A stretch of 64,000 nucleotides of DNA from Planctomycetota bacterium (GCA_023954375.1 JAMLIC010000007.1:1-64000); one strand, 5' to 3'; positions 41,885 through 64,000 are shown, numbered from the stretch's first letter. A program made the numbers and translations. Notes: a model not told the origin generated them from the letters alone.

Positions 41885-43168
41885 TCATGCCCGGACTTCG
41901 CCTGTAGACTGCCCGAAGTTGACCTTGTTCCCCGAGACGATCGGGACCGACTTGCCTGGGGGTACGTCCACGATCGAGCCATCGGGACGAGTGAGGGTCC
42001 ACGCGGAGGCCGTCAGATTCTTGATGCCGAACTGACCCGGTTTCACCGGATTCTCGGCGACTTCCCCGACCGGACTGAACGCGTCCTGAGCGCCACCGAG
42101 GTGATGCTCGAAGATCTTCGTGTCTCGGCCAAGGACGATGATGCTATCGCCGATGCGGAGGCGCGGGGGCAGCACCAGCTGCCTGCCACAGGACCAGCAC
42201 TGCTGGGCGCCTCGCGAGCGGAGCACGTCGACGTCATAGAGGTTCTCCGAAGCACAGGAGGCGCACGGAAGAAGGCTGTCGATGGCGCGAGCGAAGGCCT
42301 TCCGCCACTCGGACTCGCGGACCCGCTTGGTGGGATAGTGGAGCCCCTCGGTGAAGGAGCGCAGGAAGAGCGCCTTCAGGAACTCCGGATAGAGCGGGTG
42401 GAACGCGATCGGGTTGTCGTGGACGCCAGGCACGGGCTTGTTCGAGCCATCGGTCGGGTCGAAGATGTAGAGCGGCGCGGTGCCGTAGAGGCGTTCGAGC
42501 GCCGGCACGTCGAGGCACCGGATGTTCGCCTCTCGCTCTCCGTCGAGGGGGTGACCTCCCATTAGCATGAAGAAGATCAGGACGGCCAGCGAGTAGCGGT
42601 CGGTCTGATCCGAGGGCACCGCCTCGCGTCGCACGACCTCGGGCGCCATGAAGCGCTGGGTCCCGAGGATGCCGCCGGACTCGGTCCCGGAGACATCGAC
42701 GTTGTCGTTGTCGCAGATCCGGACGTCGCCGTTCCTCGGGTCGAAGAAGACGTTTGCGAAGGAGATGTCGCGATAGCAGAGGCCGCGGCTGTGCAGGCTC
42801 AGGAATCCGTCCGCGAGTTGCCAGGAGGCCGTGAGGAGCGCGCGGAAGCTGGGCTCGATCCGGCGAGCCATGAAGTCTTCGAGCGGGCGGAAGCGAGGCT
42901 CCCTGAGCTCCATGACGTAGCCGAACGTGCGCTCGGCGACGTCGTCGATTAGCGCGATCGGCCAGAGGAAGTAGTGGGCCGGCGAGCCCTTGGTGACAAG
43001 GCGCTCGATGACCTCGCGCTGCGCCTTCGTCGCGGTGTGGAGGTGGTACACCTTCACCGCGACCTTGCGGCCGTCGAGCTCCGAGAGCCAGACGTCGCCT
43101 TGGCCGCCAGAACCCAGGAGGGTATCGCCCTGAAGGGGCCGTCCGTCCACAGTGGTCCAGTTGCGCAT
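41885..43168 (-). CDS. TerY-P Ser/Thr kinase with zinc ribbon and C-terminal beta domain
   Basis: 427 residues. Glycine loop GSGGQGDVW (19-27), VAVKV lysine (K39), catalytic loop CYRDISFANV (D134, N139; HRD is YRD), DND (153-155, replacing DFG), and APE (175-177). After the kinase come CASC and CWSCGR, a four-cysteine zinc ribbon (about 304-329), and a ~90-residue beta-rich tail. Kinase plus ribbon plus small beta domain is the form described for the kinase of the TerY-phosphorylation triad. It is the last gene of the long operon, 6 bp after the phosphatase stop. It would phosphorylate the VWA protein or operon partners. Confidence 0.88.
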   Translation of the reverse strand: MRNWTTVDGRPLQGDTLLGSGGQGDVWLSELDGRKVAVKVYHLHTATKAQREVIERLVTKGSPAHYFLWPIALIDDVAERTFGYVMELREPRFRPLEDFMARRIEPSFRALLTASWQLADGFLSLHSRGLCYRDISFANVFFDPRNGDVRICDNDNVDVSGTESGGILGTQRFMAPEVVRREAVPSDQTDRYSLAVLIFFMLMGGHPLDGEREANIRCLDVPALERLYGTAPLYIFDPTDGSNKPVPGVHDNPIAFHPLYPEFLKALFLRSFTEGLHYPTKRVRESEWRKAFARAIDSLLPCASCASENLYDVDVLRSRGAQQCWSCGRQLVLPPRLRIGDSIIVLGRDTKIFEHHLGGAQDAFSPVGEVAENPVKPGQFGIKNLTASAWTLTRPDGSIVDVPPGKSVPIVSGNKVNFGQSTGEVRA

Positions 43169-43174
43169 CGTTGG

Positions 43175-44257
43175 TTAGCCCCCTCCCTGTTGCTGAGCCG
43201 GTGGTGCCTCGGGCGATGCCGTCGTGCCAGCTTGAACTGAAGGGGAGCCTTCAGTCGCCGCGATGACTGTCTCTGACCCCTGTTGTCCGCGTGGTTCGCC
43301 CGCCGGCGCCACGGCGGTTTCCGAACTCGCACCCGCGGCCTCGGGCTCGGATCGGTCCGGTGGCGGAGTATCGATAGGTCCGGGCGTGGGGACGGCAGGC
43401 TGCTCGCTGGCCGCCACGGGGCAGCCTGGCCTGGCGGGCCAGTGCAGTAGGCCGAAGGCGATGTCGTCGCCGCTGCCCCCGGACGTGACCGCCTCGAGGA
43501 ACCCCTTGAGGCTCCCCTCCACGGCCTCGATGCCTTCGTCGCGCACCATCGTCAGGTAGTCGGGGCCGATGCGGTCGAACACCTCGTCGGACGCGTAGGA
43601 CTTGCTGTAGCCGTCCGTGCTCATGATCAACAGCGCCTCGTCGACGGGCGCCCCGCGCGTGACGACGCGCATCGAGCTCCAGGCCTCGGGCTGGCACATG
43701 CTCGCGGTCTCGTCGGCGAAGCTCGTCGCGTCGGACGGAACCGGTCGGAGGACGCGCTGGTCTGGCGTCACGAGGAGCACGTCGCCATCGCCGAGTTGGC
43801 CCACGAGAAGAAACGTCGGCGTCGCCAGGGCGAAGATCAGGGTCGTCCCGTACGGCTTGAGCGGCGCGTTGGCGTCGCCGGCGTGCTTGCGGACCCGCGC
43901 AGTCCATTCCCTCACGAGCTGCACCCGCAAGGGGTGCTCCGCGAAGCGATGGACGGCCTGGAGGTCCGCGCCTGGAGGCAGCTCTGTGGCGAAGCGGGCG
44001 AGGTGTTCGACCGCGACCTCGACTGCGCATTGCGCGCCGACCTCGCCGTGGAGGCTGGTCCCGTGACCGTCGGCGACAGCCAGGACGACCCGGCTGTAGT
44101 CGCGATGTCCGAGGATGGCGTCCTGGCAGACCTTCCCGTCTCGCACGTGCTTGGCGCCGATCACGCAGCACCGCGCAAGCGAAGGAAGCCGAAGGCCGTC
44201 GTCTACAGGGGGAGGCGCTCCACCTTCCGGCGGAGGCTCACCAGACGTCGTTGGCAC
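43175..44257 (-). CDS. PP2C-family protein phosphatase of the TerY-P triad
   Basis: 360 residues from GTG 44257, overlapping the VWA gene end. LAVADGHGTS (D63-G64) and the later GGSGDDIAFGLL are PP2C metal-binding motifs. The N-terminal ~20 and C-terminal ~90 residues are proline/glutamate-rich and disordered. In TerY-P systems this enzyme opposes the kinase. It is soluble and cytosolic. Confidence 0.9.
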   Translation of the reverse strand: MPTTSGEPPPEGGAPPPVDDGLRLPSLARCCVIGAKHVRDGKVCQDAILGHRDYSRVVLAVADGHGTSLHGEVGAQCAVEVAVEHLARFATELPPGADLQAVHRFAEHPLRVQLVREWTARVRKHAGDANAPLKPYGTTLIFALATPTFLLVGQLGDGDVLLVTPDQRVLRPVPSDATSFADETASMCQPEAWSSMRVVTRGAPVDEALLIMSTDGYSKSYASDEVFDRIGPDYLTMVRDEGIEAVEGSLKGFLEAVTSGGSGDDIAFGLLHWPARPGCPVAASEQPAVPTPGPIDTPPPDRSEPEAAGASSETAVAPAGEPRGQQGSETVIAATEGSPSVQAGTTASPEAPPAQQQGGG

Positions 44258-44945
44258 TCGCCGGCCCAGCCTGCGGCGGCGGCGGCAGCGGGACGTTGAC
44301 TCCGCCGGGCGCGGCCTGCGTCTGGCTCGCGGGCGACGACGCGGCCTTCAGCACGGCGGTCGAGGCCCACCTGATGTACTTCACGAGCTGATCGGCGTTG
44401 TTCGCCTGCAGCGGCTCGAGCTCCGCGTGGCCGATGAACTTCTGCAGCACCTCGCGGGGCCGGTCCTTCTGAGCGTCCTCGCCGATCGCGATCGCCAACC
44501 GCACGGCCTTCATCCCCCAGGGTTGGGCCATGAGGTCGCGGAGACCGCTCTCGAAGTCATCCGTCGGCCCTCCATCGGTGACGAGGACCAGCACAGGGGG
44601 CAGCGCGCGGTCCGGCATCGGCGGGCTCTTCAGCGCATCAGCGACGAGCGTGAGCGCCCGGCCCATATCGGTCTGACCCTCGACCGACAGGTCCGTCCAC
44701 TCGAACTTCTCCACGTTCGTCGGCTGCGAGTGGTGCCACTGCGCACCGGTGGAGAACTTCACGGACCGGACCAGGACCTCGGCGTTCGGGTTCCCGCGCG
44801 CCACCTCGCGCATGTGCGGGATCGACTCCCGGATGGCGTGGTTCAGGGACTGGATCTTGTCTCCCCGCATCGAGCCCGAGCAGTCGGCGATGAAGATGAA
44901 GTGGAGGGGGCGGGTTGCAAGAGGGCCACCAGGAAGTTTGGGCAT
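44238..44945 (-). CDS. TerY-like VWA-domain protein
   Basis: 235 residues from ATG 44945, one base after the upstream stop codon. HFIFIADCSGSMRGDKI holds the MIDAS DxSxS (D21-S23-S25), with the T in GQTDMGRAL and D in VTDGGPTDDF completing the metal site. This is the TerY-type VWA domain (tellurite-resistance family), not a membrane-anchored one. The C-terminal 30 residues are Pro/Ala-rich. It is expected to bind other operon proteins in a metal- and phosphorylation-dependent way. Confidence 0.9.
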   Translation of the reverse strand: MPKLPGGPLATRPLHFIFIADCSGSMRGDKIQSLNHAIRESIPHMREVARGNPNAEVLVRSVKFSTGAQWHHSQPTNVEKFEWTDLSVEGQTDMGRALTLVADALKSPPMPDRALPPVLVLVTDGGPTDDFESGLRDLMAQPWGMKAVRLAIAIGEDAQKDRPREVLQKFIGHAELEPLQANNADQLVKYIRWASTAVLKAASSPASQTQAAPGGVNVPLPPPPQAGPASANDVW

Positions 44946-44946: not shown

Positions 44947-47169
44947 TCACACTCCAGTCGCGCGATTCTCGCGCCCGACGACTGACATCGCAACCAGGTC
45001 TGCCTTGAGCCGCGCGGCCACGGGCCGAGCGCGTGCGACCTGCTCCCAGGTCTTCAGGGCCAGATAACGCTTGTTCTTGTGCTCGAAGAGCTCACCCAGT
45101 TCCGGGGGCGCCTCGCCGGGAACCGGCGGCGCCGCGACGTCCACGACGGGGAGCTCCGGCGCACGAGCCGGGCGCGAGAGCGGCGCGAAGACGAACGGCT
45201 CGTTCGTGGCAGCCTCGAGTGTCGCGACGGCTGACGACAGCGTCCGGGCACGCTCTCGCGCCGCATCGAGAGCCGCCTTCGCGGCCGTCACGGGTGCCAG
45301 CGCCTCCCCGAGGTCGGAGCTCGGCGGCTCCCATGCGTTGACGAGGTCCAGGTCTCGCCCGATCTGGCCATGGCGCTCCTCGAGCGTCGTGACTCGCCGC
45401 TTGAGCTCCTTCCGCTTCTTCGAGTTGGCGTTGATCTGTTCTTCGGCCTCGCGCCGGGCCTCGGCGAGCTCCTTCGCCGCGAGGTCGCGGTCGGCCTCCA
45501 GGGCGGCCTTTCGCTTGGCGCGGAGCACGTCCAGCGCGGGCTTCAGGAGCGCCTCGGCGCTCTCGAGCGCGGACCCCGCCTCCTGGACCTGGCCCTCGGC
45601 ACCGGCCAGCTCCGTGCGCTTCGCTGCCGCATCGCTGGCCGCGCGAGACGTACGCTCCTGCCACTCGGCGCGCTGGCTGGCCTCGGCGGAGGAGGTCTCC
45701 GCCTTGGACCGGACCGAGTGCCATTCTCCCGCGAGCGCTTTCACATCCTGCGTCGCGGCCTCCAGCTGCTGGAGGAGCTCGCCCGCAGTCGCAGGCTGCT
45801 GGCCAGGAGGCACCTCTGCCAGCACCTGAAGGGTCTCTCGGGCCATGGCGTGGCGCCGCCGCAGCTCGTCGTGCCCCGACAGCCACCGCCGCAGGCGATC
45901 CAGGATCGACTTCTCCTCGCCTTCCAGGCCGTCAAGCGCCTGCCGCAGGGTCTCCACGCGACGGGTCGCCCACTCGTTCACGGCGCGCCACTGTCGCGTG
46001 AGCTCCGCTTCGCGCGCGCCGGTCGGAAGCGCCAGCGGCAGGAGTTTCCAACGATAGGTGACCCGCAGCGCCAGCGGCGGTGGATCGGGTAGACGCTCGG
46101 GCTGCGCCTCGTCAAAGCGATCTGGCGGAGCGGTGACCTCGGTCGCGTCCAGCGTCAGGACCGGCACCACCTTGCCGGGCGCGGTCGCACCTTCGACGAG
46201 AACCTCTCCGGTGACGTCCGCGAGGCGGCGGCGTGCGTGGAAACGCCAAGACGGGCTCGCGGCGAGCTTCGTGAGTCGGTGGTACATGTCGATCGCGTCC
46301 CGTCGCGGCCACTCGAGCTGCAGGGCGACGGGCCGCTCGACGAGGTCGAGGACCATCCGCTCCCGGGACACTGCGGTCCTGGGGAGGCCGGCATCCGCCC
46401 ACACCACCTGGGTCGCTTCGGCGGCGAGTTGCTTGGGAACGGTGACATCGCCCTTGGGCGGAACGAACGCGATGCCGGCGCGCCCTCCTACGCTTCCGTC
46501 TGGCAGGACGCGAACGTCTGCCTCGGCGATGAGCTCCGCGAGCTTCCCATCGATGAGGAGGCGGCCGGCGGGAAGGGTCACGTCGTTCCCTCGGCTGGCG
46601 GTGGGGGCAGGTAGAGGCGACCGGAACGCGACGACGCCGGCCGCATCGGGCAGTGCCTCCCGCGTCGCGTGATGCCAGAAGAGTGCGTGGAACGCCTCGA
46701 ACAGGGAGCGTGCGAGCTGCCCGTCCACAGGCACCGCCCATCGCCGATCTGCTCCGGGGGGACCGACCAGGAGGACGCCAGCTCGTCCGGCGTCGGCGAC
46801 CAGCCAATCCGCGGGCAGGTCGTATCCGAGACGCATGAGCAGCCGGTCCGAGGCGGAACCCAGTGCTTGGAAGACGCGCCGATCGCTCTCGACGTGACGT
46901 CCCGCATAGACGTAAGTGCGCACCGCGCCGGGGGGGGAAGCGAGGACAGCGTCGAGCAGCGCACCCGACGTCGTCGTCTTGCCCGTCGCGACGACCAGGG
47001 ACTTCGCGGACCCGATCAGCGAAGTCACCGCCGCGACGACGTCCGTGGCCTTGCGCCAGGGGAGGTCGCAGGCACCTCCTCCTGCGACGGACTCCCACAG
47101 GGCGAAGGTCGTCTCGGACCGATCGACGGTCCGCTCCTTCAGCTCCGGTGCGAGCGGTCCTGAGCGCAT
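44947..47169 (-). CDS. Large coiled-coil protein, possible PLD-like N-terminus
   Basis: 740 residues from ATG 47169 (MRSGPLAPELKE), two bases after the upstream TAG. Residues about 1-170 have an alpha/beta pattern (SAKSLVVATGKTTTSGALL; GAVRTYVYAGRHVESDRRV) that loosely recalls phospholipase D-like folds, but I find no HKD motif, so this is weak. The middle (170-340) is mixed, then heptad-rich Ala/Glu/Arg coiled coil from about 390 to 690. It may be a structural scaffold linking the helicase/GHKL proteins to the TerY-P triad. I do not recognise the family. Confidence 0.6.
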   Translation of the reverse strand: MRSGPLAPELKERTVDRSETTFALWESVAGGGACDLPWRKATDVVAAVTSLIGSAKSLVVATGKTTTSGALLDAVLASPPGAVRTYVYAGRHVESDRRVFQALGSASDRLLMRLGYDLPADWLVADAGRAGVLLVGPPGADRRWAVPVDGQLARSLFEAFHALFWHHATREALPDAAGVVAFRSPLPAPTASRGNDVTLPAGRLLIDGKLAELIAEADVRVLPDGSVGGRAGIAFVPPKGDVTVPKQLAAEATQVVWADAGLPRTAVSRERMVLDLVERPVALQLEWPRRDAIDMYHRLTKLAASPSWRFHARRRLADVTGEVLVEGATAPGKVVPVLTLDATEVTAPPDRFDEAQPERLPDPPPLALRVTYRWKLLPLALPTGAREAELTRQWRAVNEWATRRVETLRQALDGLEGEEKSILDRLRRWLSGHDELRRRHAMARETLQVLAEVPPGQQPATAGELLQQLEAATQDVKALAGEWHSVRSKAETSSAEASQRAEWQERTSRAASDAAAKRTELAGAEGQVQEAGSALESAEALLKPALDVLRAKRKAALEADRDLAAKELAEARREAEEQINANSKKRKELKRRVTTLEERHGQIGRDLDLVNAWEPPSSDLGEALAPVTAAKAALDAARERARTLSSAVATLEAATNEPFVFAPLSRPARAPELPVVDVAAPPVPGEAPPELGELFEHKNKRYLALKTWEQVARARPVAARLKADLVAMSVVGRENRATGV

Positions 47170-47171: not shown

Positions 47172-48254
47172 CTATTCGACCCCCAGGTCGGTGGCGGCAG
47201 AGAGGAGCCAGCGCGTGCGCGCGGCGACCGCGACGCGGCCCGCTGAACGGACCGCTGTCGGTAGCGGCGGCGCGGCCGCGGCCTGCTCGAGTGGGGTTCC
47301 CTTCACGCACCGCTCCCACTCGGCGCCCCACTTGGGCCCGGTCACGTACTGGTCCGCAGCGGCGACCCTCGCCGTTGCTAGCGCGAGGGCCCATTCGCGC
47401 GCCTCGGCCTCCGTCGCGGGGCCGACGGGAATGCCCTCGACGACGACGTCCCGGAAGGCTCCATAATCGGCTACGTGAACCTCGGGGTAATTGAAGGCCC
47501 GCCTGAAGTCGTCATTGCCGTTGGGACGGGCGCCGTCGTAAGCCATCTCCACGCGACGCCGTGTTCGGTTCCACCGCTTGTCCCAGCGCGCGATGGCGCC
47601 CGCCAGCTTCTTCTCGTCAACGCTGCGCGGCTCCGACCTGAAGGTCTTGGGCGGATCGTCGACGGACCCTTCAAGACGCCACGAGTTACGACCCAACTCG
47701 GGGTCCACGTCCCAAAGCAGCTTGCAGGCGGGAAGCTCGAAGACCCGGCACCTGGGCTTAGCGTTCCTGATCGGAACGAAGCGAACAGAGAAACGCATGG
47801 ACTCGCCCAGCGCGGACGCCCAGACCTCGTCGGGATCGATGATCAACCAGGGTGGGTGGTCCTCGAGCGAGTCGAAGTCACGGTCTCTCGCATCGCCCTC
47901 CGCGGGTCGACACGCGAGAACGCACGAGCCGGTGACGCGGTGGAAGGCGACGAGCAGCCTGTAGACGCCCATCTCCCACGCAGGCGCCTGGCCCGTACTC
48001 GCGCACCGGAGGCCGAGGGGAGTCAGCTGACGTCGCTCGTTCAGCAGGCGCATCTCGACGAGGCTTCGAACGAAGTTCTTCCGCGCCGTGGGCGAGAGAC
48101 CAGGCAGAACGCCGTCGATCTCTGCGTCGCCGAGGCCAGCCTTCGCGGCGGCCGAACACAACCGCTGGAGGTCCGGGCGCGCCTCCCACACAGCGAGCTC
48201 CGCGAACGCCTGGACCTCGAAGAGCTCCGCCTCTGCAGTGAGCGTGGTCTTCAC
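47172..48254 (-). CDS. Unrecognised protein with N-terminal winged-helix-like region
   Basis: 360 residues from GTG 48254, which overlaps the helicase stop (GTGA). The N-terminal ~110 residues are helical and end in ARKNFVRSLVEMRLLNERRQ, the look of a winged helix. The middle has WLIIDPDEVWASALG and a basic R-rich patch (RWNRTRRRVEM). No enzymatic motif. Its constant coupling between helicase and coiled-coil genes suggests it is a dedicated adaptor of the complex. Confidence 0.6.
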   Translation of the reverse strand: MKTTLTAEAELFEVQAFAELAVWEARPDLQRLCSAAAKAGLGDAEIDGVLPGLSPTARKNFVRSLVEMRLLNERRQLTPLGLRCASTGQAPAWEMGVYRLLVAFHRVTGSCVLACRPAEGDARDRDFDSLEDHPPWLIIDPDEVWASALGESMRFSVRFVPIRNAKPRCRVFELPACKLLWDVDPELGRNSWRLEGSVDDPPKTFRSEPRSVDEKKLAGAIARWDKRWNRTRRRVEMAYDGARPNGNDDFRRAFNYPEVHVADYGAFRDVVVEGIPVGPATEAEAREWALALATARVAAADQYVTGPKWGAEWERCVKGTPLEQAAAAPPLPTAVRSAGRVAVAARTRWLLSAATDLGVE

Positions 48255-51200
48255 CGTCTTGCCTCCCTGGGGAGAACAGGGGTCTGCTCGGCCAAGGCGG
48301 TCAGCTCCTCGGAGGGGCAATCCTCCGCGAAGTATCTCCGGTTGCCAACCAGTATCAGCATGAAACGCGCACGCGTGATGGCGACATTCAGGCGGTTGGG
48401 GCTGTCCATGTGGCCGGGCCGCGACGTGTTCCGCAGGCTCAGAATCACCAGGTCCGCCTCACGGCCCTGGAACCGGTCGACCGTCGCACAGGCCACGACC
48501 GTGTTCGGCAGCTCGAACCGCGTCTCGCCGCGCCGGTGCCCGGTCAAGCGTCGGAGCTCGTCACGCAGCGCAAGCTCCTGGCGGTTGTAGAACGACAAGC
48601 AGGCGACTTCCCACGGGCGGTCGTCGGTGCGCGTATGAGTGCGCGCATGCTCCGCCCATTGCTGCAGCAGATGACCGACCGCCTCGACCTCGCGGGGGTT
48701 CGTTCCGCGCTCCTCGTGGCCCTTCACGTCGAGCCATACCCGGCGGCCGAGGGCGTGGCCGAGGAAGCCCCACCCGATGCGCGCGTCGCGCCCCTCTAGG
48801 GTATTCGCGTCGTGGAGGGCGAGGCCGTCATAGAAGAGCTTGGAAGGAAGCTCCGAGATGCCTGGATGCATGCGGTGCTGGCGGGAGAGGAGCACCGATC
48901 GATCGGACCAGACCTGCTCGGGGATCGCGTCGGTCAGAGCGCTTCGCTTCCGTACGCGCGGATCGACGCGCCGCACCCGCAGGGACTCGATCACGCTCCT
49001 CACGCCGACGTCCCGAATCGCGTCGATGGCAGGCGGGACCCACTCGCAGAAGGGATGACCTGCAGGCATGAGCAGGTCGACCTCCTCTTGTCGCCACGTG
49101 CGGTCACGGTCGTTCCGCGCGGACGAGAGCTGATGAACTCGCCCGAGGCGCCACGCGATCTGGGCTGCCCAGGTCTCCTCACGCAGGAACGTCTGCTGAG
49201 CGGCCGCAAGCTCCTCGACGGAGCCGAATTGCTTGCGCCTGTTCTCGCGGACCGGCGGCTGGAGTTTCCCGAATGAGGTCGTCCACCAGGTCTGGCGCCG
49301 CGAGAGTGTTGACTCCGCGCCGAGAGAGCGGAGGGGGACGAAGTGCGGTGGGAGAGCGGCCTGGACGCGAGGCAGGTCCGCATCCGCGACGAGGAGCCAG
49401 TCGGCGCCGAGGACTCGAAGCGACGATGGCCGGCGGGCGAGGAGGTCCGCGATCGCGACCTCGTCTGGTCCGGTGGCCTGATGGACGAGGCGTGCTAGCT
49501 CGGGCTGGCCGCCGTCGTCGCGCTCCTGTCGCGCGGCGACCTCCCACACCAGAGCGTCGAGCACCTCGGCCGGCTCCACGATGAGCCACCTCACCCGGCC
49601 CCAGCCGGCCTCGGCGCGCGTGAGGCGAAACAGGAGCAGGCATGCGCGCTGGAGGGCGTCCGGCAGGCGCGCGCCCTCCTCGTTGTTGACCTCCGCTAGG
49701 CTCGCCTCGAGGTCGCGGGGATCGGTGAACGGCGGGAGTTGCCGGACGTCGCCCACGACGACCCAGCGCCGTGCGAGCTGGGCAGGGACCAGGAACTCCT
49801 GCAGCGTGGTCTTGCTCGCCTCGTCCAGGATGAGGACGTCGAAGTACGGCCAGCGGGGCCCGCTGCCTTCGTCCGATCGGCGGATGTAGGGGTGTGCGAG
49901 GATTCCTGTCGTCGTCCCGCAGGTCAGGTTCGCCCCGGCCAGCACGGTCTCCTCGGCCGCCCGCTCGAGCGCCGTGTCGTCTAGGCCGCTGAGGGCACCT
50001 CGTGCCCGCCACGTGTCGATGAGGGAGTCGATTCGCCGATCGATCTGGCAGCCGAGGACACGCTCGTCGACCCGCTCGGCCTTCCCGATCCGCACGGCCT
50101 CGACCACGTCCGCGAACTTTCCGAGAAGACGTTCGAGGACGTTGTCGACGGCCACGTGAGTGGTGGAGCACAGCAGGACACGCTGCGGCCGCTGGGGATC
50201 GCAGATCAGTTGAAGGACGAGCTCGCAGATCGCATGCGTCTTGCCGGACCCCGGCGGGCCCTCGAGGAAGGCGAAGTCCGGAGTGCCAAGCGCCTTTTCC
50301 ACGAACTCGCGCTGCTCGAGCGTGCCGTCCCAGCGGTGGTCGTCCAGCACGTACCACTTGCTCACCCGAGCGCGCTGGGCCCGCGCCCAGTGCACCTTCT
50401 TCGGGTCCTCGCACAGGGTCAGGAGCCCGCGGTGGTGGGGAAGTGGGCTGTCCCGGAGCCGGTACACCGCCGCGAGCTGGCGCTGGATGGCGTGCGTGTT
50501 GGCAGGGAGGAACACCGAGCTCCCGTCGGGCGGCAATCGATCGAGCTCGAGTCGGTACGTCTCCCGGCGGGAGCCCAGGACGCGGTATGCGTTCCTATCT
50601 CCACCGCCCTTCTGGGTGCGGACCTCCCGGACGCCCTCCTCGCAGTAGGCGACCCGAGGATCGACGGTGGCCTGATCGTCGACGTCGTCCGGGGCCAGGA
50701 GCTGGATGAGAACGCCGCGACGACGGCGCTGGCCGGCGTCTTCGGACCAACTCCAGCGCACTCCATTGTCCGAGGTCAAGATCTCGGCGTCGAACGGGGT
50801 GACCGGGGTGAGGACGCGTTCTCCTGTCCATGGCTGAGAGGTTCGTTGCCCGCGCAGGCTCGCGGCCCCCACGTGCGGCTCCACCACACGGTGGGCAATC
50901 GGGAGCCCGACCTCAGACAGGACCGAGTCTGGAGGCGCGCCCTCGACGATCAGCCGGAGGAAGGCTGGCGACTCTCGCCTCTCGCGAACGGGAGTGATCG
51001 CGCCACCACGGCGAATGACGAGCCGAGCTGGCCAGGCCGCGTTGACGGCTACGAGCTGCACCTGTCTGCCCTGCCAGTAGACGGTCTCTCCTTCGCCGAC
51101 CTCCTCGGTCAACCAGACGGTGACCCCCTGGGCGCCGTGTTCCGTGCGCATGGGTACGACGGGGCGGAAGGCAGCTCCGATGAACAGCGGGTGCGGGGAG

Positions 51201-51460
51201 GGGGGCTCCGTCCAGCCCTCGACCCGGTACGCAAACCCATCCCGCGTGAGTTCGACCACCGAGTCCAAGGGAGTCAGGCGAACCGGCTGGTCCGAGGCGA
51301 CGGCCTCCCAGCGGCAGTGCGAGCGCGCCTCTCGGGCCCGCGCTGCGTTCCTGGCTGCCATGAGGTATGCCACGAACGGACGCAGACTCTCGTGGGTCTG
51401 CAGGCCCAATGCGGGCGCGATGTTTGGCGGAGCGAGGGCGTTGAGATAGAGCGGCCTCAC
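48251..51460 (-). CDS. SF1 helicase of the UPF1/DNA2 type
   Basis: 1,069 residues from GTG 51460, with GGGAGGG upstream; upstream of this start the frame runs into the previous gene. The N-terminal ~380 residues are beta-rich and unassigned. Motif I GPPGSGKTHA lies near residue 400, motif II VLILDEASK, motif III VVGDVRQLPPF, QHRMHPGISELP, and motifs V-VI TVDRFQGREADLVILS and NVAITRARF. This is an SF1B-type nucleic-acid motor. In defence islands such helicases unwind or load on phage DNA. The gene is coupled both to the micro-ORF before it and to the unknown gene after it. Confidence 0.92.
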   Translation of the reverse strand: MRPLYLNALAPPNIAPALGLQTHESLRPFVAYLMAARNAARAREARSHCRWEAVASDQPVRLTPLDSVVELTRDGFAYRVEGWTEPPSPHPLFIGAAFRPVVPMRTEHGAQGVTVWLTEEVGEGETVYWQGRQVQLVAVNAAWPARLVIRRGGAITPVRERRESPAFLRLIVEGAPPDSVLSEVGLPIAHRVVEPHVGAASLRGQRTSQPWTGERVLTPVTPFDAEILTSDNGVRWSWSEDAGQRRRRGVLIQLLAPDDVDDQATVDPRVAYCEEGVREVRTQKGGGDRNAYRVLGSRRETYRLELDRLPPDGSSVFLPANTHAIQRQLAAVYRLRDSPLPHHRGLLTLCEDPKKVHWARAQRARVSKWYVLDDHRWDGTLEQREFVEKALGTPDFAFLEGPPGSGKTHAICELVLQLICDPQRPQRVLLCSTTHVAVDNVLERLLGKFADVVEAVRIGKAERVDERVLGCQIDRRIDSLIDTWRARGALSGLDDTALERAAEETVLAGANLTCGTTTGILAHPYIRRSDEGSGPRWPYFDVLILDEASKTTLQEFLVPAQLARRWVVVGDVRQLPPFTDPRDLEASLAEVNNEEGARLPDALQRACLLLFRLTRAEAGWGRVRWLIVEPAEVLDALVWEVAARQERDDGGQPELARLVHQATGPDEVAIADLLARRPSSLRVLGADWLLVADADLPRVQAALPPHFVPLRSLGAESTLSRRQTWWTTSFGKLQPPVRENRRKQFGSVEELAAAQQTFLREETWAAQIAWRLGRVHQLSSARNDRDRTWRQEEVDLLMPAGHPFCEWVPPAIDAIRDVGVRSVIESLRVRRVDPRVRKRSALTDAIPEQVWSDRSVLLSRQHRMHPGISELPSKLFYDGLALHDANTLEGRDARIGWGFLGHALGRRVWLDVKGHEERGTNPREVEAVGHLLQQWAEHARTHTRTDDRPWEVACLSFYNRQELALRDELRRLTGHRRGETRFELPNTVVACATVDRFQGREADLVILSLRNTSRPGHMDSPNRLNVAITRARFMLILVGNRRYFAEDCPSEELTALAEQTPVLPREARR

Positions 51461-55850: not shown

Positions 55851-57187
55851 AGCGGGGCGTCCCCAAAGGCGAGGGACTGTGCGAACCGTGTCGCGCCAAC
55901 GCGCGTCACGCGCTCAACGTGATCCGCGAGGTCGAGAAGTTGTATCGGGCGGAGGCGAACGCGAGCCCGGGCGACGCGCTCGGCGGGGTCGAGGACGTCG
56001 ACGGCCGACTCACGCGCGAGCGGCGAGGTCGTCGGGTAGAGGATCGTGGCCTCACGCTGGCCGTGGCTCAGGGCGTAGATCGCGAGCTGGTAGAGCATGT
56101 CGCGGGGGAGGGGGGTCTCCCAGAGGTCGCGGTACTTCACGTCGAGGAAGGCGACGACGTGGTTGCGGCGGCGGATGGCGAGGTCGGGGCGGGGGGTGGG
56201 GGCGGAGCGGTTGCGGGGGTTGAGGCCGGGGGCGTAGCGGAAGACGCCGGAGAGGCGGTGTTCGGACTCGACGCGGTAGTCGTCGGGGAGGTGCTCGGAG
56301 AGGAAGCGGGTGAGGACGGCCTGGAAGAGACGGTTCATGTCGAAGAGGAAGCCGGGGAGGGTGCGGTCGGGGCCGGTGGCGGTGAGGTCGTCGAGGCCGT
56401 GGGCTTCGGTGAGCAGGCGGATGAGGTCGAGGAGGGGGGTGTAGCGGTCGGTCAGGCGGCTGGTCGCGCGGTCGGCGGCGGCGAGGGTGGTGGCGTCGAG
56501 GCGGACGGGGGTGACGGCGTCGCCGAAGCGGGAGGCGAGGCGGCGGAGAGCGATGGCGAGGGTGCGGTCGGCGGTCAGGCGGGCGCCGAGTTCGAGGCCG
56601 GCGCGGACAACGCGGTTGAGGAGGACGTCCTCGCTGCGGGGGTGATGGACGCAGGGGAGGGTGGCGAGGGTCTGGGCGGCGGGGCCGCGGCGGGCGAGGG
56701 TGTCGATGTCGATGCGGCCGCGGGGGGAGGCGAGGTCTTCGGCGCGGCGGAGGTAGGAGCGGTGGAGGCCGGACTCGAGGAGCTCGGCGGCCTCGGCGGC
56801 GAGCTGGGCGATGAGGAGGTCGGGCCAGGCGTCGGCGGTCGTGACGGTGTCGATCAGGTTGACGAGCGAGAGCTCGCGGAGGCCGAAGCCGTAGCGGAGG
56901 AGGGTGAGGAAGGGGGCGCCCTCGATCTTGGGCAGGATCGTGAGATCGAGGGCGCCGAGGCGGACGCGGCCGACCCAGGAGCTCGTGGTTATCGAGAGGC
57001 CTCGGCGGAGCTCGGTGACGCCGAGTCGGCGGGAGCGGGTGAGGTCGGCGGCCAGGCGACGGGCGGCGGGGTCGTCGTCGAACGATCGGCCGAGCAGGAC
57101 CTGGTCGTCGTCGGGGCCGCGCGTCTGCCACTCGCGAAGCGTGAGGTGCGGACGCGGGGGGGCGGGGATGCGAAGGGCCCCTGTCAT
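55847..57187 (-). CDS. mcrC: McrC-family nuclease subunit
   Basis: 446 residues; ATG 57187 overlaps the McrB stop (ATGA). The N-terminal barrel-like part is followed by helical sequence and the C-terminal PD-(D/E)xK nuclease: RPDLAIRR and FLDVKYRDLW supply D...DxK. McrC binds the McrB hexamer and cuts modified DNA. Third codon positions here are almost only G or C, more so than in the neighbouring methyltransferase, by eye. Confidence 0.88.
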   Translation of the reverse strand: MTGALRIPAPPRPHLTLREWQTRGPDDDQVLLGRSFDDDPAARRLAADLTRSRRLGVTELRRGLSITTSSWVGRVRLGALDLTILPKIEGAPFLTLLRYGFGLRELSLVNLIDTVTTADAWPDLLIAQLAAEAAELLESGLHRSYLRRAEDLASPRGRIDIDTLARRGPAAQTLATLPCVHHPRSEDVLLNRVVRAGLELGARLTADRTLAIALRRLASRFGDAVTPVRLDATTLAAADRATSRLTDRYTPLLDLIRLLTEAHGLDDLTATGPDRTLPGFLFDMNRLFQAVLTRFLSEHLPDDYRVESEHRLSGVFRYAPGLNPRNRSAPTPRPDLAIRRRNHVVAFLDVKYRDLWETPLPRDMLYQLAIYALSHGQREATILYPTTSPLARESAVDVLDPAERVARARVRLRPIQLLDLADHVERVTRVGATRFAQSLAFGDAPL

Positions 57188-60039
57188 GCTTGCCCGTCCG
57201 GGATCGGGCTGGTCTTGCCGTTGCCGCTACCGGCCGCGTCGGTCGACGATGAGGGACCGTACGGCGTCTCGTCGTCCAGCTCGTCGTCGTCGTCCGTGAC
57301 TGGGCCGCCCTGCTCGACGATCCGACGATACGTGGCTACGCGGCCTGCCACCCAGGCTTCGTCGGTCTTCCCCTTCGCCGCGTAACGCGCGCGGTAGACC
57401 TCCAGGATCTCCTCGGCGGAGCGCCCCTCCTGGAGGAGGCGTCGCATGAGGGGAATGTTGGTGAGCTCCCGGCTCCAGGTCGCCGTCTCGTCCTCGTCGC
57501 TCACGACACGCGTCGTCGCGAGGTCGGGGTCGAGGGCGAGGAGGTGCTCGACGACCTCGGTGGCGCGGTCGGCGGTGAACAGCTCGTCGCGAATGCGCTG
57601 GTTCTCCGCGTCGACGATCTTCTCGCCGACGAGCTCGGCGAGCGCGCGAAAGTCGGCGTAGCAGTACTCCTCCAGGAGGGGGATCACGTCCTCACGGAGG
57701 ATCTGGACGAAGCGGGTGGTGGACTCGATCGGCTGACCGCGGTCGAGGAAGTAGGCGTGGCCGATCTGGAGGTTGCGGGCGTCGCGCTTGACGTGCTGGA
57801 GGATCCGGCGGTTGAGGCGCTGGAGCCAGAGGCCGAGCGGGAGGGCGGGCTTGATCACGGCGTTCCTGAGCGGCGTGACGTCGGGCATGAGCTCGACGAA
57901 GCCGAAGCGGCGGCGGAGGGCGGCGTCGAGGAGCGCGATCGAGCGGTCGGCCGTGTTCATGGTCCCGATCACGCGCACGTTCGGGGGCACGCTGAACGAC
58001 TCGCCGCTGGGGAGGACGGCGAGGCGACCGCGCTTGTCGACCTCGAGCAGCGTGAGCAGCTCGCCGAAGATGCGGGGGACGTCGCCGCGGTTGATCTCGT
58101 CGACGATCAGGAAGTGCGTCCAGCGCTCGGTCGAGGCCGCGGCGTCGCGGCACAGGCGCTTGAACACCCCGTCGCGCCGCTCGAAGCTCATGCCGCTGGC
58201 CTTCGGCTCGGGGCGGTAGCCCTCGATGAAGTCCTCGTAGCCGAAGGCCGGGTGGAAGGTGCACAGGCGCACCCGGCCCGTCGGGCCGCGGATCGCGCTC
58301 TTGCTGGCCTCATCGAGCTCGTCGAAGTGCTTCCCGTGCTCCTCCCAGGCGGCGAGGTCGCAGGCCGTGCGCTCGGCCCAGTGCGTCTTTCCGGTGCCCG
58401 GCGGCCCGTACAGGATCGCCTGGCCCTTGCGGTCGAGGATCGCCTGGACCCGGCCGCGAATTCCGCCGAGTGGTGGCACGGTTCGCCGTCGGTGAGGCTG
58501 GGGAATTGGCGGCTCGTCGCCCTTGCCCGGGATCGGAGGTGGAGGAGGCAGCGGCGGCCCGGGGAGCTGCGGGTCGAGCAGCGCCGTCCGGACGGCGATA
58601 ATGTTCTCCGGACGAGCGACGTGGTCGAAGATGCCTCCGAGTGACTCCGGGGTCGCAAGGACGAAGGGACGGACGCTCAGCCACTCGACAGTCCGCTGGT
58701 GAGGAAGCTCGTCATCGGCGGCGAAGGCGTAGTCGCCCGTGATGCGTCCGATGGCGAGGACCTCCTGACCCCGAGAGACGAGGACCTGGTCGCCGTGCTC
58801 GACGTCGTGGACGAACCAGCCGAGCTCCGTGGTCCGCCGCTGCAGCTCGCGGCCGTCCAGATCGGGGAAGGCCAGGGACACGCGCTGGCGCAGGGCGTCC
58901 TTCCAGCGGTCGGACGGGAGATCGCGGAGGTCGGTGGTCTTGGCCCCGGGGAGGGCGATAGCCGAGCGCGCGAGCAGCCCGTCCAAGCCCTCTGGGCCGA
59001 CATGGCCGACGTCGACCAGGTAGTGACTCAGGGGCCGCCCGTTGCGCCTGCTCAGCACCTGCATGGTCGTGACCTGCGACCAGCCCAGGAGCGCCGCGAT
59101 GGCCGCGAAGCGACCGGCGCAGACGAAGCGCCCGGGCGCGTCGGGGGGCCGCTGGAGGAGGCAGAGCAGGTTCCAGTCCTGGTACGGGCGGACGTGGAAG
59201 CTGTCGATCGCCTCGGGGAACAGGAGGGCGAAGTACTTGTGCCCCCAGGCAGTGTCGACCAGGTCAGGTGCAACGTCGTCGAGTTCGCGCTGGAGCGCGC
59301 GGTACGCCTCGTCGGAGCGATCGCCACCGAGGCGCTCGATCGCTCCCACGGCCCGCACGATCTGATCGCGGTGTTGCCGGGCTCGCGCGACGGCCTCGGC
59401 GAGGCTGAGAACACGCTGTCGCTTGCCCGCGCCCGTCACCCACTGGCCCTCTCGCGTGCGGTACAAGCCGAACTTGGCCGCGTTGCCGCCGGCGATCACG
59501 CCGTAGCTGCGGGTGGCGAACTCGTCGTCGTCCTTGAACTCCAGCCAGTAGGTGAGGTTCTCCTTGTTGCCGGTCCCGTGCATGCGCTCGAGCAGCGCCT
59601 CGCCGTCGAGCTGCCGGAGCACGTCGGGCCCGAAGAGCTGCCGGAAGCGCGTGCGGTCGGCCTGGGCGCGGTCGGGCGAGAGGAGTTCGCCGGCCTCGAG
59701 AGCGCGTGCGTGTGTAGCCACGAGGTCTGCGTGGACCTGGGGCGAGACATCGCCGGTCATACGCGGCCCATCGCTTAGAGCCGATCTCCCGTCAGGCGGC
59801 CTAGAGCTAGACGTCTCGACGCGCTGCCACTTGCCTGAGATGGTGAGCTGAATCAGCCCCCGATCACGCAGATCCTGGAGGACCTGGCGGATCTTCGCCT
59901 GCACGTTCTCGTTGCCCGGGTAGCGCGATCTTAACTCCTCCTCATGAACGTAGAGATCAGCGCTAGTGAACTCGCCGCGCGGGGTACGTTCGAGCACGAG
60001 CTTGTGCCAACCGCTGAGTTCGGGCTGCTCCATGCTCAT
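57184..60039 (-). CDS. mcrB: McrB-family GTPase with DpnI-like N-terminal winged helix
   Basis: 951 residues from ATG 60039, chosen because it overlaps the methyltransferase stop (ATGA) and follows GAGAGGGAG. Residues about 7-75 (GEFTSADLYVHEEELRSRYP, then NVQAKIRQVLQDLRDRGLI) closely follow the DpnI C-terminal/Dam-replacing winged helix that reads N6-methyladenine. A long middle region (about 100-500) is shared with other McrB-like proteins (LTYWLEFKDDDEF). The AAA+ GTPase has GPPGTGKTHWAE near residue 545, FLIVDEINRGD, and the McrB signature MNTADRSIALLDAALRRRF. It would assemble with McrC. The reader domain suggests it senses adenine rather than cytosine methylation. Confidence 0.9.
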   Translation of the reverse strand: MSMEQPELSGWHKLVLERTPRGEFTSADLYVHEEELRSRYPGNENVQAKIRQVLQDLRDRGLIQLTISGKWQRVETSSSRPPDGRSALSDGPRMTGDVSPQVHADLVATHARALEAGELLSPDRAQADRTRFRQLFGPDVLRQLDGEALLERMHGTGNKENLTYWLEFKDDDEFATRSYGVIAGGNAAKFGLYRTREGQWVTGAGKRQRVLSLAEAVARARQHRDQIVRAVGAIERLGGDRSDEAYRALQRELDDVAPDLVDTAWGHKYFALLFPEAIDSFHVRPYQDWNLLCLLQRPPDAPGRFVCAGRFAAIAALLGWSQVTTMQVLSRRNGRPLSHYLVDVGHVGPEGLDGLLARSAIALPGAKTTDLRDLPSDRWKDALRQRVSLAFPDLDGRELQRRTTELGWFVHDVEHGDQVLVSRGQEVLAIGRITGDYAFAADDELPHQRTVEWLSVRPFVLATPESLGGIFDHVARPENIIAVRTALLDPQLPGPPLPPPPPIPGKGDEPPIPQPHRRRTVPPLGGIRGRVQAILDRKGQAILYGPPGTGKTHWAERTACDLAAWEEHGKHFDELDEASKSAIRGPTGRVRLCTFHPAFGYEDFIEGYRPEPKASGMSFERRDGVFKRLCRDAAASTERWTHFLIVDEINRGDVPRIFGELLTLLEVDKRGRLAVLPSGESFSVPPNVRVIGTMNTADRSIALLDAALRRRFGFVELMPDVTPLRNAVIKPALPLGLWLQRLNRRILQHVKRDARNLQIGHAYFLDRGQPIESTTRFVQILREDVIPLLEEYCYADFRALAELVGEKIVDAENQRIRDELFTADRATEVVEHLLALDPDLATTRVVSDEDETATWSRELTNIPLMRRLLQEGRSAEEILEVYRARYAAKGKTDEAWVAGRVATYRRIVEQGGPVTDDDDELDDETPYGPSSSTDAAGSGNGKTSPIPDGQA

Positions 60040-63000
60040 CTCCCTCTCGCGCCCGCCACGTCGGACGCGGCTGAAGATCCATTTGGTACGCACGCGAGTG
60101 TTGGATCTGCGGGAGGCGGCGACAGGCGCGCCTCATACGTTGTGCCGAAGCGCAAGGCCTCGATCATGCGGTCATGGATCTCGAGGACGAGACGCTTGGA
60201 CCTGTAATCGCCGGTCTCCTTGATCTCAGCCGACCGCAACGCCTCGAATGTGTCCATGATGTAGCTGAGATCTTCAGAAGAGAGCCCGTAGCAGGTGGCT
60301 GCGAATGCTGTGAGTTCGCCCTGGAGAAGCGACCGTCGCTCGGAGTTCCAACGGAACGGTGGGCCGTCATAGCCGCACTCTTGCGCGAACGCTTGCAGGT
60401 CCCATGACGTGTAGCACAGCTCCAGCAGTCGTTCCTGAATCGCCTCGGCTCGGCCGAATGTACCTGCGGCAAGCTCCCGAATTCGGTCGGGCGGTGGAAC
60501 CGGCAAGCGACCGAACACGTCCTGGCCGAGATGATCGTTGCCAAGCAAGAGTCGGGCGAAATAGTCGATGACGAACGAACCCAATAGCGCGCAGAGCACG
60601 CTCGCGTCGGCCGCCGAGCGATTGAACAAATAGATGGAATGCAGGCTTCGCGTTAGACCGGAGAGCGGGATGATCGTGCAAATGGTCGTCCGCGAATTCG
60701 TCGCGCCGGTCACGTCCTTGATGACGAGTTCCCAGTCGCCTTGGTCCTTGCCAAAGCGTCGTGTTCTTACGACGTTCTCAAGCAGCCAGTGCTGCGGCTG
60801 AGCGAAACGATCCGGCGAGACTTTCTCGAGCTCGGGGACTGGTCGCTCCTGCGCCTGGCGAGTGGGATTCTTCGGGTTGAGATACACATCTGCTTGGCGA
60901 TGGTCAAAGACTCCGATCATCTTCCCTTCGTAAACAGGAACGCACGCTTCACCCGTTGTTAGGATTCGGCGATTGTCGAGGGTCCGGTGGGCTCCCTCGA
61001 TGAGTTCCTTCTCTATGGGAGCGAACGCCTTGTCGGAGCTCGAGAACATCAGCTTCGGTGTGTAGTCCCACGTACTCGACAGTTGCCCTGCACTCGCGAG
61101 CGCAGAAGCGAGCAATCGAAGGTCACGGCCACTTCGGAACTGTGGAAGCGCGCGTGAATCACCGCTGAAACGGAGAAGATCCTCTGCCGACAACCGAACC
61201 CGACGTGCCTCGTCCGCCAGTTGAGAAGGATTGGTCAACCAGCAGCATGCGGCGAACTCGTCAGCGGCTTGGCGGCTCAGAGTAAGAAGGCAGAACTTCT
61301 TCCGCTTATCGACCCCTTCGAAGAGTTCCTCTCTATTCTCGAAGTCAAAGAGCGACACTACGGCTTTGCGATCGAGCAGGTGTGACCACATTGGGCGATC
61401 GTATGTGTTGGTGGGCAGAGTGCTCTGGACGATGAGCCCAAGGCGACCTCGTGGCGCCAGCAGTCGATACCCAAGCTCAAGGAATGACCGATAGAGGTTC
61501 AGGCGCCCCTTGCCGGAGTAGGGCAATGCTTCCGACTTCGCGAGAAAGGCGCGATCGACGTCGTTGCCGCGAACATGGTCTCTCCACCTCGCGGCCAGTT
61601 GTGGGTCGCTCGAATCCAGTCTCGCGATCAACGCTTGACGCTTCTTCGGGGATGGCTCGCTCGCGATGTCGGGTCGAGACGCTGCAAAGAAGAGTCGCTC
61701 GTCAGTTTCCGGCATCTCCCACGGGGGATTCCCGATGATGACGTCGAAGCCACCCGACCACCCTGTGTCTGAGTTCGTGGCGGACTCACCTGCCATGGGG
61801 ACCGAGAACACTTGAGGAAACGCCAAGTGCCAGTGAAAGAACTTCCGCTCCTTGGCCAGGCGTTCAACTGCAGCGACGAAAGCGGACCCTTCTGCGTCAG
61901 GATCGAACAGAGACTGCAGCGTGGCTTGCGTTGGAACGAGCCACTCAAGCTCCGTTGTCTTGCGTGCATAGAAGGACGCGCACCACGCGTTTGACACGTT
62001 CAGAGCAGTTACGTAGTCCGACGACGCCAGGAGGCGCTCCCATGCGCGTGCCTTGGAGGCGATTCCCTCCAGCGTGGCGTCCTTGGCTAGCTCGACCTCC
62101 TCAGCACGTTGCGCCAAGAGATTGAAACGCTCAGAGATCGGGTCCTTGAACAAGTGGGTTTGGCCTTCGCGCTGTTCTTGGTTCAACGTCTCAAGCTGCT
62201 TGGCAACCTCAACGTCGTCATCCCCTCTCGGAGCGAATGCAGCGTCAGGTATGCCCGACGTGAGCAGCGCGGGAGTTGCTCCGATAAGGGAGTTCCCGAC
62301 GCGGATGTGCCCGTCAAGGAACGACAGAGGACGACCAGGCTCGACAGCCTCTAGCCAGAGGCTGATCTTGCACAACTCGACCGCCATCGGATTCAGGTCA
62401 ACGCCGAAGATGCACCGACTGACGACATCGCGCATGGCGTGGCTGAATGCGTGGGGACTGGGTTCGTTGTCGCCTGCGCGGACGGCCGCTAGGCGGTGCG
62501 CGATCCGGCGAGCGGCCGCGACAAGAAAGTGGCCAGACCCGCAAGCGGGATCGCACACGCGAAGTTCAAGGATTGCCGCTTCAGGATTTGAGGAGCGGCA
62601 TCTAACGTCGAGCACGGGTTCGAGGGTGGAGTCGAGGAGGCAATCGACGAGCGAGGGGTGAGTGTAGTAGCTGCCGGATGACTTGCGTTCGTGGCCAGCA
62701 GTGGTGGTGAGGTCGAATCCGCCGGCCTCGCGCTCCAGGCGGGGCTGTCGCTCGAGTAACGACTCGTACACCGACCCGAGTTCGTCAGCGCCGACTTGGG
62801 CCCAGGCGACGGGCATGACAACTACCCCGTCGCTGACCTCGATCAGCATTCGCAACGCCGAGAGCAGGTCTTCGTTGGTAAGGGCGCTCTGGCCTAGCAA
62901 GCCTACAGCATTGGGCTTCCACAGAAAGCTCCCAAGCGCGGGTAGGCCCAGCTCTGGGCAACCGGCGTAGAGACGGTCCATAATCAGCTTCAGCCGCGTC

Positions 63001-64000
63001 CAGAGATCGCTGTGTGGCCCCCCGCGGCGGCGGGTCGCGAGTGCACGCAGGTGCGAAGTCGCGTAGTAGCGGGTGTAACGCTTACGGGCGACCTCGGATG
63101 CGGTTGGATCGAGCAGGACGTTCCGGTCCTCGGTGACGAACAGGAAGATGAATCGGTACACGAGGCGGAGGAGCTGACGGTAGTACTCCTGGGGCTCGAG
63201 TCCGGAGTCGCCGAGCGCATTGCGGAGGTGAACGTTGTCGGGATGGCGAAGGAATCCGCCCCCCAAGACTCGGATCGCTTCCTCGACACCGTTCCGAAGG
63301 CGGCGGAGAGCCCGAACGCCCTCCGCTTTGCCACACTCAAACCAATGTTCGAGGAGGCACTTGACATCACCCTCTCGGCGAAAGCGGCTCTCGTGGCACA
63401 CGAGCCAAAGAACGCGGAACTCGCTGTAACGCTGGTCGTCGAAGATGGACTCAAGGTCGAACTCGACGTACGCCTGCCGGGTGATGCTCTTGCTGTCGCG
63501 GAGAATACGCAGGACCAGACCGTTGGTGACGATCGCCCAGTCGTGAGCGTCGGATCTATTGAGGAAGTCCTGGACGAGACCGTGGGGCGTGGTCTTCGCT
63601 GCACCCTGGACAGCCTGCGTCTTCACGTCCAAACCAACGCGTGCGCCAAGCAGGTGGATGGCCGTGTGCGTGGCCTCGTGTTCGTGCGAGATCGGATAGG
63701 TGCGGCCGTCGAGATCGAACGCTTGTCTCTTCGATAGGCGCCCGAAGCTGAGCTCTTGGAACAGCGGCAGAAGCCACCGGTCGCGCGTGGCCGTCGTGGC
63801 GGTAGCAGTAGGCGACTCCTTCTCGAGGGCGGTTCGGAAGCCGACCCATGCGGCAAGGAGACGCGTCCACGAGCGGTTGACGACTTCGCTCTCGCGCTCG
63901 TGATCCAGGATGGCGTAGTCGGCGTCCTTCAGCCCGGGGAGTTTCGGATCGCGGGCAGCGATGCGCTGGAGGAGGTCGTGAGGCAGAAGACCGCCCTCGG
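60036..64000 (-). CDS. Eco57I-type adenine methyltransferase, 5' end beyond window
   Basis: At least 1,321 codons; the frame stays open to the right edge, reading EGGLLPHDLLQRIAARDPKL at the boundary, so the gene is partial. A TTG at 63632 is not the start. An N-terminal region with FQELSFGRLSKRQAF and WAIVTNGLVLRILRD is followed by a helical part, then motif X/I VCDPACGSGHFLVAAAR, GVDLNPMAVELCK, and catalytic IGNPPWEM: an N6-adenine methylase of the large Eco57I/PglX/DISARM-methylase class, with a C-terminal target-recognition region. It probably marks self DNA. Lower third-position GC than McrC, by eye. Confidence 0.88.
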   Translation of the reverse strand, partial: EGGLLPHDLLQRIAARDPKLPGLKDADYAILDHERESEVVNRSWTRLLAAWVGFRTALEKESPTATATTATRDRWLLPLFQELSFGRLSKRQAFDLDGRTYPISHEHEATHTAIHLLGARVGLDVKTQAVQGAAKTTPHGLVQDFLNRSDAHDWAIVTNGLVLRILRDSKSITRQAYVEFDLESIFDDQRYSEFRVLWLVCHESRFRREGDVKCLLEHWFECGKAEGVRALRRLRNGVEEAIRVLGGGFLRHPDNVHLRNALGDSGLEPQEYYRQLLRLVYRFIFLFVTEDRNVLLDPTASEVARKRYTRYYATSHLRALATRRRGGPHSDLWTRLKLIMDRLYAGCPELGLPALGSFLWKPNAVGLLGQSALTNEDLLSALRMLIEVSDGVVVMPVAWAQVGADELGSVYESLLERQPRLEREAGGFDLTTTAGHERKSSGSYYTHPSLVDCLLDSTLEPVLDVRCRSSNPEAAILELRVCDPACGSGHFLVAAARRIAHRLAAVRAGDNEPSPHAFSHAMRDVVSRCIFGVDLNPMAVELCKISLWLEAVEPGRPLSFLDGHIRVGNSLIGATPALLTSGIPDAAFAPRGDDDVEVAKQLETLNQEQREGQTHLFKDPISERFNLLAQRAEEVELAKDATLEGIASKARAWERLLASSDYVTALNVSNAWCASFYARKTTELEWLVPTQATLQSLFDPDAEGSAFVAAVERLAKERKFFHWHLAFPQVFSVPMAGESATNSDTGWSGGFDVIIGNPPWEMPETDERLFFAASRPDIASEPSPKKRQALIARLDSSDPQLAARWRDHVRGNDVDRAFLAKSEALPYSGKGRLNLYRSFLELGYRLLAPRGRLGLIVQSTLPTNTYDRPMWSHLLDRKAVVSLFDFENREELFEGVDKRKKFCLLTLSRQAADEFAACCWLTNPSQLADEARRVRLSAEDLLRFSGDSRALPQFRSGRDLRLLASALASAGQLSSTWDYTPKLMFSSSDKAFAPIEKELIEGAHRTLDNRRILTTGEACVPVYEGKMIGVFDHRQADVYLNPKNPTRQAQERPVPELEKVSPDRFAQPQHWLLENVVRTRRFGKDQGDWELVIKDVTGATNSRTTICTIIPLSGLTRSLHSIYLFNRSAADASVLCALLGSFVIDYFARLLLGNDHLGQDVFGRLPVPPPDRIRELAAGTFGRAEAIQERLLELCYTSWDLQAFAQECGYDGPPFRWNSERRSLLQGELTAFAATCYGLSSEDLSYIMDTFEALRSAEIKETGDYRSKRLVLEIHDRMIEALRFGTTYEARLSPPPADPTLACVPNGSSAASDVAGARGR

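Follow-up and report, generated by a model that had tools for sequence, protein, structure and literature searches.

A probable composite defence operon in a Planctomycetota bacterium: an ARMADA Type I-like unit with McrBC, followed by a GHKL ATPase, an SF1 helicase module and a TerY-P triad

The locus described here is best explained as a composite defence operon, in which separate anti-virus modules have been placed end to end, are co-expressed and follow a complementary methylation logic; we give this reading a probability of about two in three. Stacked defences, and not one new machine, are proposed because the modules occur separately elsewhere. The head consists of an ARMADA Type I-like unit and a canonical McrBC; the tail begins with a Tiamat-like GHKL ATPase with a possibly nuclease-like C-terminus and continues with an SF1 helicase module and a TerY-P triad. 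What the sequence itself establishes is which genes are present, how they join, where the modules end, which motifs have been lost and that McrB carries a winged helix; their cotranscription, substrates and role against phage, like the methylation logic and the control by phosphorylation, are inferred from these. No second instance of the full combination turned up in the genomes searched, while the ARMADA half and its link to McrBC are already known. The statement of the first-pass annotation that it did not know the full assembly as a named system stands insofar as no identical named system was found, but its first half has been named ARMADA (PMC12458937).

The 64,000 nucleotides of the window analysed are the start of a 238-kb contig (C83, whose coordinates follow the window numbering) in a genome totalling 10.1 Mb. 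All genes from the ArmB-like adenine methylase to the Ser/Thr kinase (STK) lie on the minus strand. Stop and start codons overlap as ATGA at 60036, 57184 and 55847 and as GTGA at 48252; then follow, in order, a 2-bp gap, a 1-bp gap, a 20-bp overlap and a 6-bp gap, as first annotated. Gaps of at most 7 bp had been claimed throughout, and this is so elsewhere, but the GHKL-to-SF1 spacing is about 73 bp if a 26-codon ORF is left out. No homologue of this ORF (51457-51535) was noticed and its status as a gene is uncertain; the SF1 gene has its own strong ribosome-binding site, GGGAGGGAGGG, in the spacer. Nor does the operon consist of ten cistrons starting at the methylase, as had been thought: four more minus-strand genes lie upstream of the window end, every junction being a GTGA or ATGA overlap, so that the run comprises 14 genes and about 34 kb and reaches C83:75,910 (Table 1). 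A scan for promoters and terminators inside the operon, weak in high-GC DNA, found none above the chance level, and we infer that the whole 14-gene run is transcribed as one unit. Pfam searches bore out the family assignments (Eco57I, AAA_5, McrBC, NOV_C with Sacsin/GHKL, AAA_11/AAA_12, VWA, PP2C and Pkinase), and all parts do belong to defence-linked families.

Table 1. Features of the composite operon and its downstream neighbours (C83 numbering; values are E-values unless stated otherwise).
Feature	Position	Strand	Evidence
LmuA with Cap4 nuclease	31841-33469	-	Lamassu-type operon
LmuB, SMC-like	33469-36597	-	Lamassu-type operon
LmuC	36594-37286	-	Lamassu-type operon
ABC-3C CTD2/LmuA-like protein	37319-38959	-	Lamassu-type operon
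Phage-type tyrosine integrase	40527-41453	-	Between Lamassu genes and composite operon
STK, Ser/Thr kinase, C-terminal zinc ribbon (two CxxC)	41885-43168	-	Pfam Pkinase 1e-19; YRD, CDND, CxxC motifs
PP2C phosphatase	43175-44257	-	Pfam PP2C_2 1e-40; DGHG, GDGD, GDD intact
TerY-like VWA protein	44238-44945	-	Pfam VWA_2 1e-7; MIDAS (DCSGS) intact
u7, degenerate PLD-like protein, long coiled-coil region	44947-47169	-	hhalign to plasmid PLD proteins 99.1%, 1e-18
u6, conserved SF1/u7 partner with a predicted N-terminal winged helix	47172-48254	-	30% identical to G043 homologue
SF1 UPF1-like helicase (PADLOC MkoA)	48251-51460	-	AAA_11/AAA_12 about 1e-30; MkoA 6e-87; Walker A, B intact
26-codon ORF	51457-51535	-	GTG start overlaps GHKL stop; TGA overlaps SF1 GTG
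GHKL (sacsin-like) ATPase, C-terminal NOV_C/DUF3883, TmtA family	51534-55850	-	TmtA 4e-179; NOV_C 2e-8; Sacsin/GHKL 5e-8
McrC endonuclease	55847-57187	-	Pfam McrBC 2e-28; PD..DxK intact
McrB GTPase, N-terminal DpnI-type winged helix	57184-60039	-	DpnI_C 1e-13; AAA_5 5e-15
ArmB/PglX/DrmMI-like adenine methylase	60036-64000, running on to 64043 outside the window	-	Eco57I 2e-22; DrmMI 2e-63
ArmA, BrxHII/DpdE-like SNF2 helicase	64040-66925	-	BrxHII 7e-61
DUF429 protein	66922-68265	-	DUF429 2e-5
ArmD-like RelE-UvrD helicase	68262-70364	-	UvrD_C 1e-18; GajB 4e-28; RelE-like N-terminus read from sequence
ArmC, YprA-family helicase, Vsr motif lost; first operon gene	70361-75910	-	DruE 7e-90

The four upstream genes match defence profiles (DpdE 4e-255, DrmD 2e-82, BrxHII 7e-61 and DruE 7e-90), and the methylase carries the DPACGSG and NPPW motifs. 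Judged by these features, the upstream genes together with the methylase make up an ARMADA Type I-like unit. Against Type I relatives, identity is 45-46% for ArmC, 45-49% for ArmA and 32-36% for ArmB, the latter over nearly its full length; ArmC is 46% identical to a Nocardioides ArmC that adjoins ArmA and ArmB, as befits the YprA/DruE-type helicase of Type I. The ArmC-ArmA-ArmB series is kept in plasmid relatives from Nocardioides, Deinococcus, Roseomonas and Rhodococcus, and in Nocardioides ArmC-ArmA-ArmB-McrB-McrC is an overlapping operon by itself. ARMADA-McrBC without the tail is found on Nocardioides and Deinococcus plasmids and in a sister genus (G002).

With ARMADA Type I (Bell et al., 2025 preprint, PMC12458937) the locus shares a YprA helicase, a BrxHII-like SNF2 helicase and a PglX-like methylase in the same relative order (the helicases being 45-49% identical), as well as adjacency to canonical McrBC. 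It differs in having two extra genes, for the ArmD-like RelE-UvrD helicase and the DUF429 protein, between ArmC and ArmA, and in the appended second cassette. A RelE-GajB helicase (ArmD) is typical of ARMADA Type II (PMC12458937) and absent from Type I; here an ArmD-like gene is present, and G002 keeps a remnant. Type I is also predicted to have an active Vsr at the YprA C-terminus; the Vsr DGPxH motif is kept in four Type I relatives but lost in ArmC both here and in G002, hence the label 'Type I-like'. The position of ARMADA beside McrBC is a published association; McrBC neighbouring a DISARM-like cassette, or neighbouring methylases, was already on record in the CoCoNuT paper (PMC11090510). 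In G002, the ArmD-like gene has shrunk to its two ends (L054:9066-9533), with neighbours 65-89% identical, so that the RelE-UvrD component seems dispensable. In another genome (G007, L060/L061), lacking a strong ArmC match, a RelE-UvrD-like helicase directly precedes McrBC, and ArmD-like helicases may therefore also pair with McrBC alone.

In the McrBC pair, the PD and DVK residues of McrC line up with PD and DAK of solved McrC, and the McrB motor matches E. coli McrB (5e-41) with the canonical NxxD signature MNTADRS, so that the two hallmarks of type IV McrBC, the McrB GTPase signature and the McrC PD-(D/E)xK site, are present. The McrB N-terminus aligns with the DpnI structure 4esj (E 6e-6), with conservation of a KIRQ helix that corresponds, by residue count, to the helix holding DpnI K229 and R231. 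This winged helix is predicted to be a 6-methyladenine sensor. DpnI-type winged helices are described as sensors of fully methylated ApT, and the same work noted pairs of a winged helix-NTPase with McrC, activity on 6mA not being established there (PMC11037411). The pair studied here likewise combines winged helix, NTPase and McrC partner, with the KIRQ helix and an intact McrC site, but it comes after an adenine methylase within one operon.

Taking these elements together, the methylase would mark self DNA, a role already suggested and considered plausible, and the ARMADA helicases would act on unmarked invader DNA; the McrB winged helix would find adenine-methylated invader DNA, which McrC would cut. 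Between them, the two arms of the head would act against viruses with and without modified DNA. The cell's own DNA would be spared if the marks are of the PglX type, one-stranded and non-palindromic, and the winged helix needs fully methylated ApT. Methylation of a non-palindromic motif by PglX affects one strand only. The BREX PglX enzymes treated in PMC11341690 methylate non-palindromic motifs, and PglX-like one-strand methylation would therefore create no fully methylated ApT target, allowing the methylase and McrB to coexist. Complementarity between BREX and a type IV system has been shown experimentally (PMC8565348). The pairing of an adenine methylase with an McrB that has a predicted 6-methyladenine reader offers a testable example of a putative complementary methylation defence, probably within one transcript. 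A scan of the genome for a host Dam-type methylase found two tandem D12-class adenine methylases (C20, L072), possibly a type IIS pair; depending on their specificity, these might interfere with an McrB that reads m6A.

The boundary between head and tail has been located by comparison with G002, which belongs to the same family. Protein identity between both loci is 89% for ArmC, 65% for DUF429, 87% for ArmA, 56% for the methylase, 74% for McrB and 82% for McrC, although in G002 the unit is split over two contigs, the break falling between McrB and McrC. DNA similarity (87%) stops about 140 bp before the mcrC stop of this locus, and the next gene in G002 encodes an unrelated ATPase with an N-terminus that reads as DUF429-like. 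No GHKL, SF1, u7, VWA or PP2C homologues were found in the G002 assembly, which is 86% complete. Since homology ends at mcrC and tail homologues were not found, the head is regarded as a unit of its own, to which the tail was joined at that point. GC3 is 96% in the head (methylase excluded) vs 83% in the tail (Mann-Whitney p 2e-14), and the run from GHKL through SF1-u6-u7 to TerY-P is a second cassette. The locus illustrates how large defence operons are put together: the ARMADA-McrBC unit is common to two sister genera, and what adjoins the 3' end of mcrC here is a different cassette. The N-terminal half of the methylase is 76-92% identical to that of G002 and the C-terminal half 25-51%, a divergence fitting the exchange of the target-recognition part. 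GC3 of this gene is low along its whole length (61-79% in blocks, the G002 orthologue having 84-100% over nearly all), which suggests that the whole gene was replaced by a homologue.

The first protein of the tail matches the PADLOC TmtA profile, best over residues 35-1097, and carries the GHKL motifs NADDA and GxKGxGF, together with EVKGR in its NOV_C end. TmtA is presumably the Tiamat system gene, and NOV_C is a nuclease-like domain. Tiamat is known as a stand-alone gene; here, its GHKL ATPase is embedded after mcrC. Among 118 genomes searched, on which its co-occurrence rests, strong GHKL matches were limited to this genome and G013, where the homologue lies beside a different SNF2-methylase pair. 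The overlap at mcrC/GHKL and the tight GHKL/SF1 joint could reflect functional coupling.

The SF1 helicase is followed by u6 and u7, and the three occur without ARMADA, McrBC or TerY-P in three other genomes (G043, G096 and G010) and on three plasmids. By profile comparison, u6 (a putative wHTH protein, the winged helix having been read from its sequence) is homologous to the u6 of the plasmid modules across both branches (hhalign 97.7%, E 1.5e-12). The u7 homologues on plasmids are PLD proteins in which two HxK-D-N motifs never vary; both are absent from u7 here, which gave no Pfam match of its own and nothing against solved structures; its coiled coil was recognised by inspection. Because AlphaFold gave poor models for both u6 (mean pLDDT 38.6) and u7 (32.8), profile comparison was used instead. 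In G043 and G096, an AAA ATPase precedes the module and DUF1257-like and radical SAM-like genes follow it, identified with Pfam in G043 and by resemblance of sequence in G096. The gene after the module encodes a sigma-54-type AAA protein, which reads as RtcR-like, in G010, in Pontibrevibacter and on two Vibrio plasmids. SF1-u6-u7 is thus a conserved helicase/putative-wHTH/PLD module with a changing regulator (RtcR-like, AAA-DUF1257-radical SAM or TerY-P), for which no name was found in the literature searched. The modules of G010 (L039:7686-14802) and G096 (L037:675-10940) show two regulator types within one phylum.

The adjacent VWA, PP2C and STK genes agree with TerY-P, in which the kinase ends in a zinc ribbon, as here, or an OB fold. 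A stand-alone triad on a Methylomonas plasmid is 66% (VWA) and 45% (kinase) identical to this one, and TerY-P occurs without ARMADA-McrBC or SF1-u6-u7 on Methylomonas and Prevotella plasmids. Within the composite operon, the SF1-u6-pseudo-PLD module might work on RNA or ssDNA in the manner of Mokosh or the CoCoNuT helicase arm, and would be regulated by the kinase, phosphatase and VWA protein. At the thresholds used, and counting this genome, relatives of SF1 are present in 6 of 392 genomes from the phylum and relatives of VWA in 3, and only this genome has both. When the SF1 alignment was used for a genome-wide scan, the G043 record alone came back, the peptide patterns of the scan being probably too specific. 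The full combination was not met again within these limited samples (392 genomes for SF1/VWA, 118 for GHKL). VWA and kinase genes also lie beside another SF1 helicase in G060 (L081:11464-17646), possibly a CoCoNuT-type locus.

Mokosh (MkoA/MkoB/MkoC), reported as an RNA helicase plus nuclease system, resembles this locus in pairing its UPF1-like SF1 helicase with a PLD-type protein and in including a Ser/Thr kinase; besides the SF1 match to MkoA, STK matches the kinase part of MkoA (9e-9). Here, however, the kinase is a separate gene within a TerY-P triad, u6 is additional, and the active PLD nuclease that Mokosh joins to its helicase is replaced by the catalytically degenerate u7. The tail together with McrBC could instead be a divergent CoCoNuT of Type II/III-A, predicted to target RNA, since those types combine McrBC, a UPF1-like SF1 helicase, a winged-helix effector and a TerY-P zinc-ribbon kinase in a single operon (PMC11090510), and SF1, u6, the coiled-coil u7 and an STK with CxxC pairs share an operon with McrBC here. 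Nevertheless, CoCoNuT McrB has an NxD signature fused to a coiled coil, and this McrB has NxxD and a DpnI-type reader instead; on this signature CoCoNuT membership was rejected. As, in addition, SF1-u6-u7 homologues exist without McrBC, and Pfam and profile searches recognised no HEPN or Vsr effector in u6 or u7, even a divergent CoCoNuT is improbable. The most far-reaching idea, an unlikely one, is that SF1-u6-u7 is an unnamed, widespread defence module with swappable control, its coiled-coil-branch pseudo-PLD protein acting as a scaffold, wired here to the ARMADA-McrBC head so that McrC or NOV_C would cut under kinase control.

From the overlaps, it had been argued that one complex unites the methylase, McrBC, the GHKL protein, the helicase and TerY-P, GHKL being the switch and phosphorylation the means of control. 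Such an integrated machine would agree with the tight junctions, unbroken across all modules, and modules could share nucleases, given that nuclease motifs are lost in ArmC and u7 but remain in McrC and NOV_C. However, head, SF1-u6-u7, TerY-P and GHKL are each found without the others in other genomes, precisely the finding that had been named as contrary to it, and at module level the overlaps thus lose their force as evidence for one complex, which was rejected as the main reading. Moreover, the G002 head ends at mcrC, GC3 differs between head and tail, and the Vsr loss is not explained by the tail because it is already present in tail-less G002; taken together, one machine is improbable. 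A small chance is likewise given to a gene order devoid of functional meaning, produced by ordinary juxtaposition within a defence island or by a join in the metagenome assembly. The integrase and a Lamassu-type operon (31841-38959, minus strand) lie directly downstream, and the assembly, in 115 contigs with 5.9% contamination, is fragmented. Against this reading stand the 14 genes in a row on one strand, overlapping or separated by small gaps. Composition, furthermore, goes from low in the methylase to high in McrBC and low again in the tail, with host-like flanks, a pattern that a single misjoin would not produce, and a misjoin at mcrC is unlikely.

Regarding its surroundings, no tRNA was found in the window, the nearest one found being a tRNA-Gly at L005:16100-16171, and the integrase possibly marks a mobile island.
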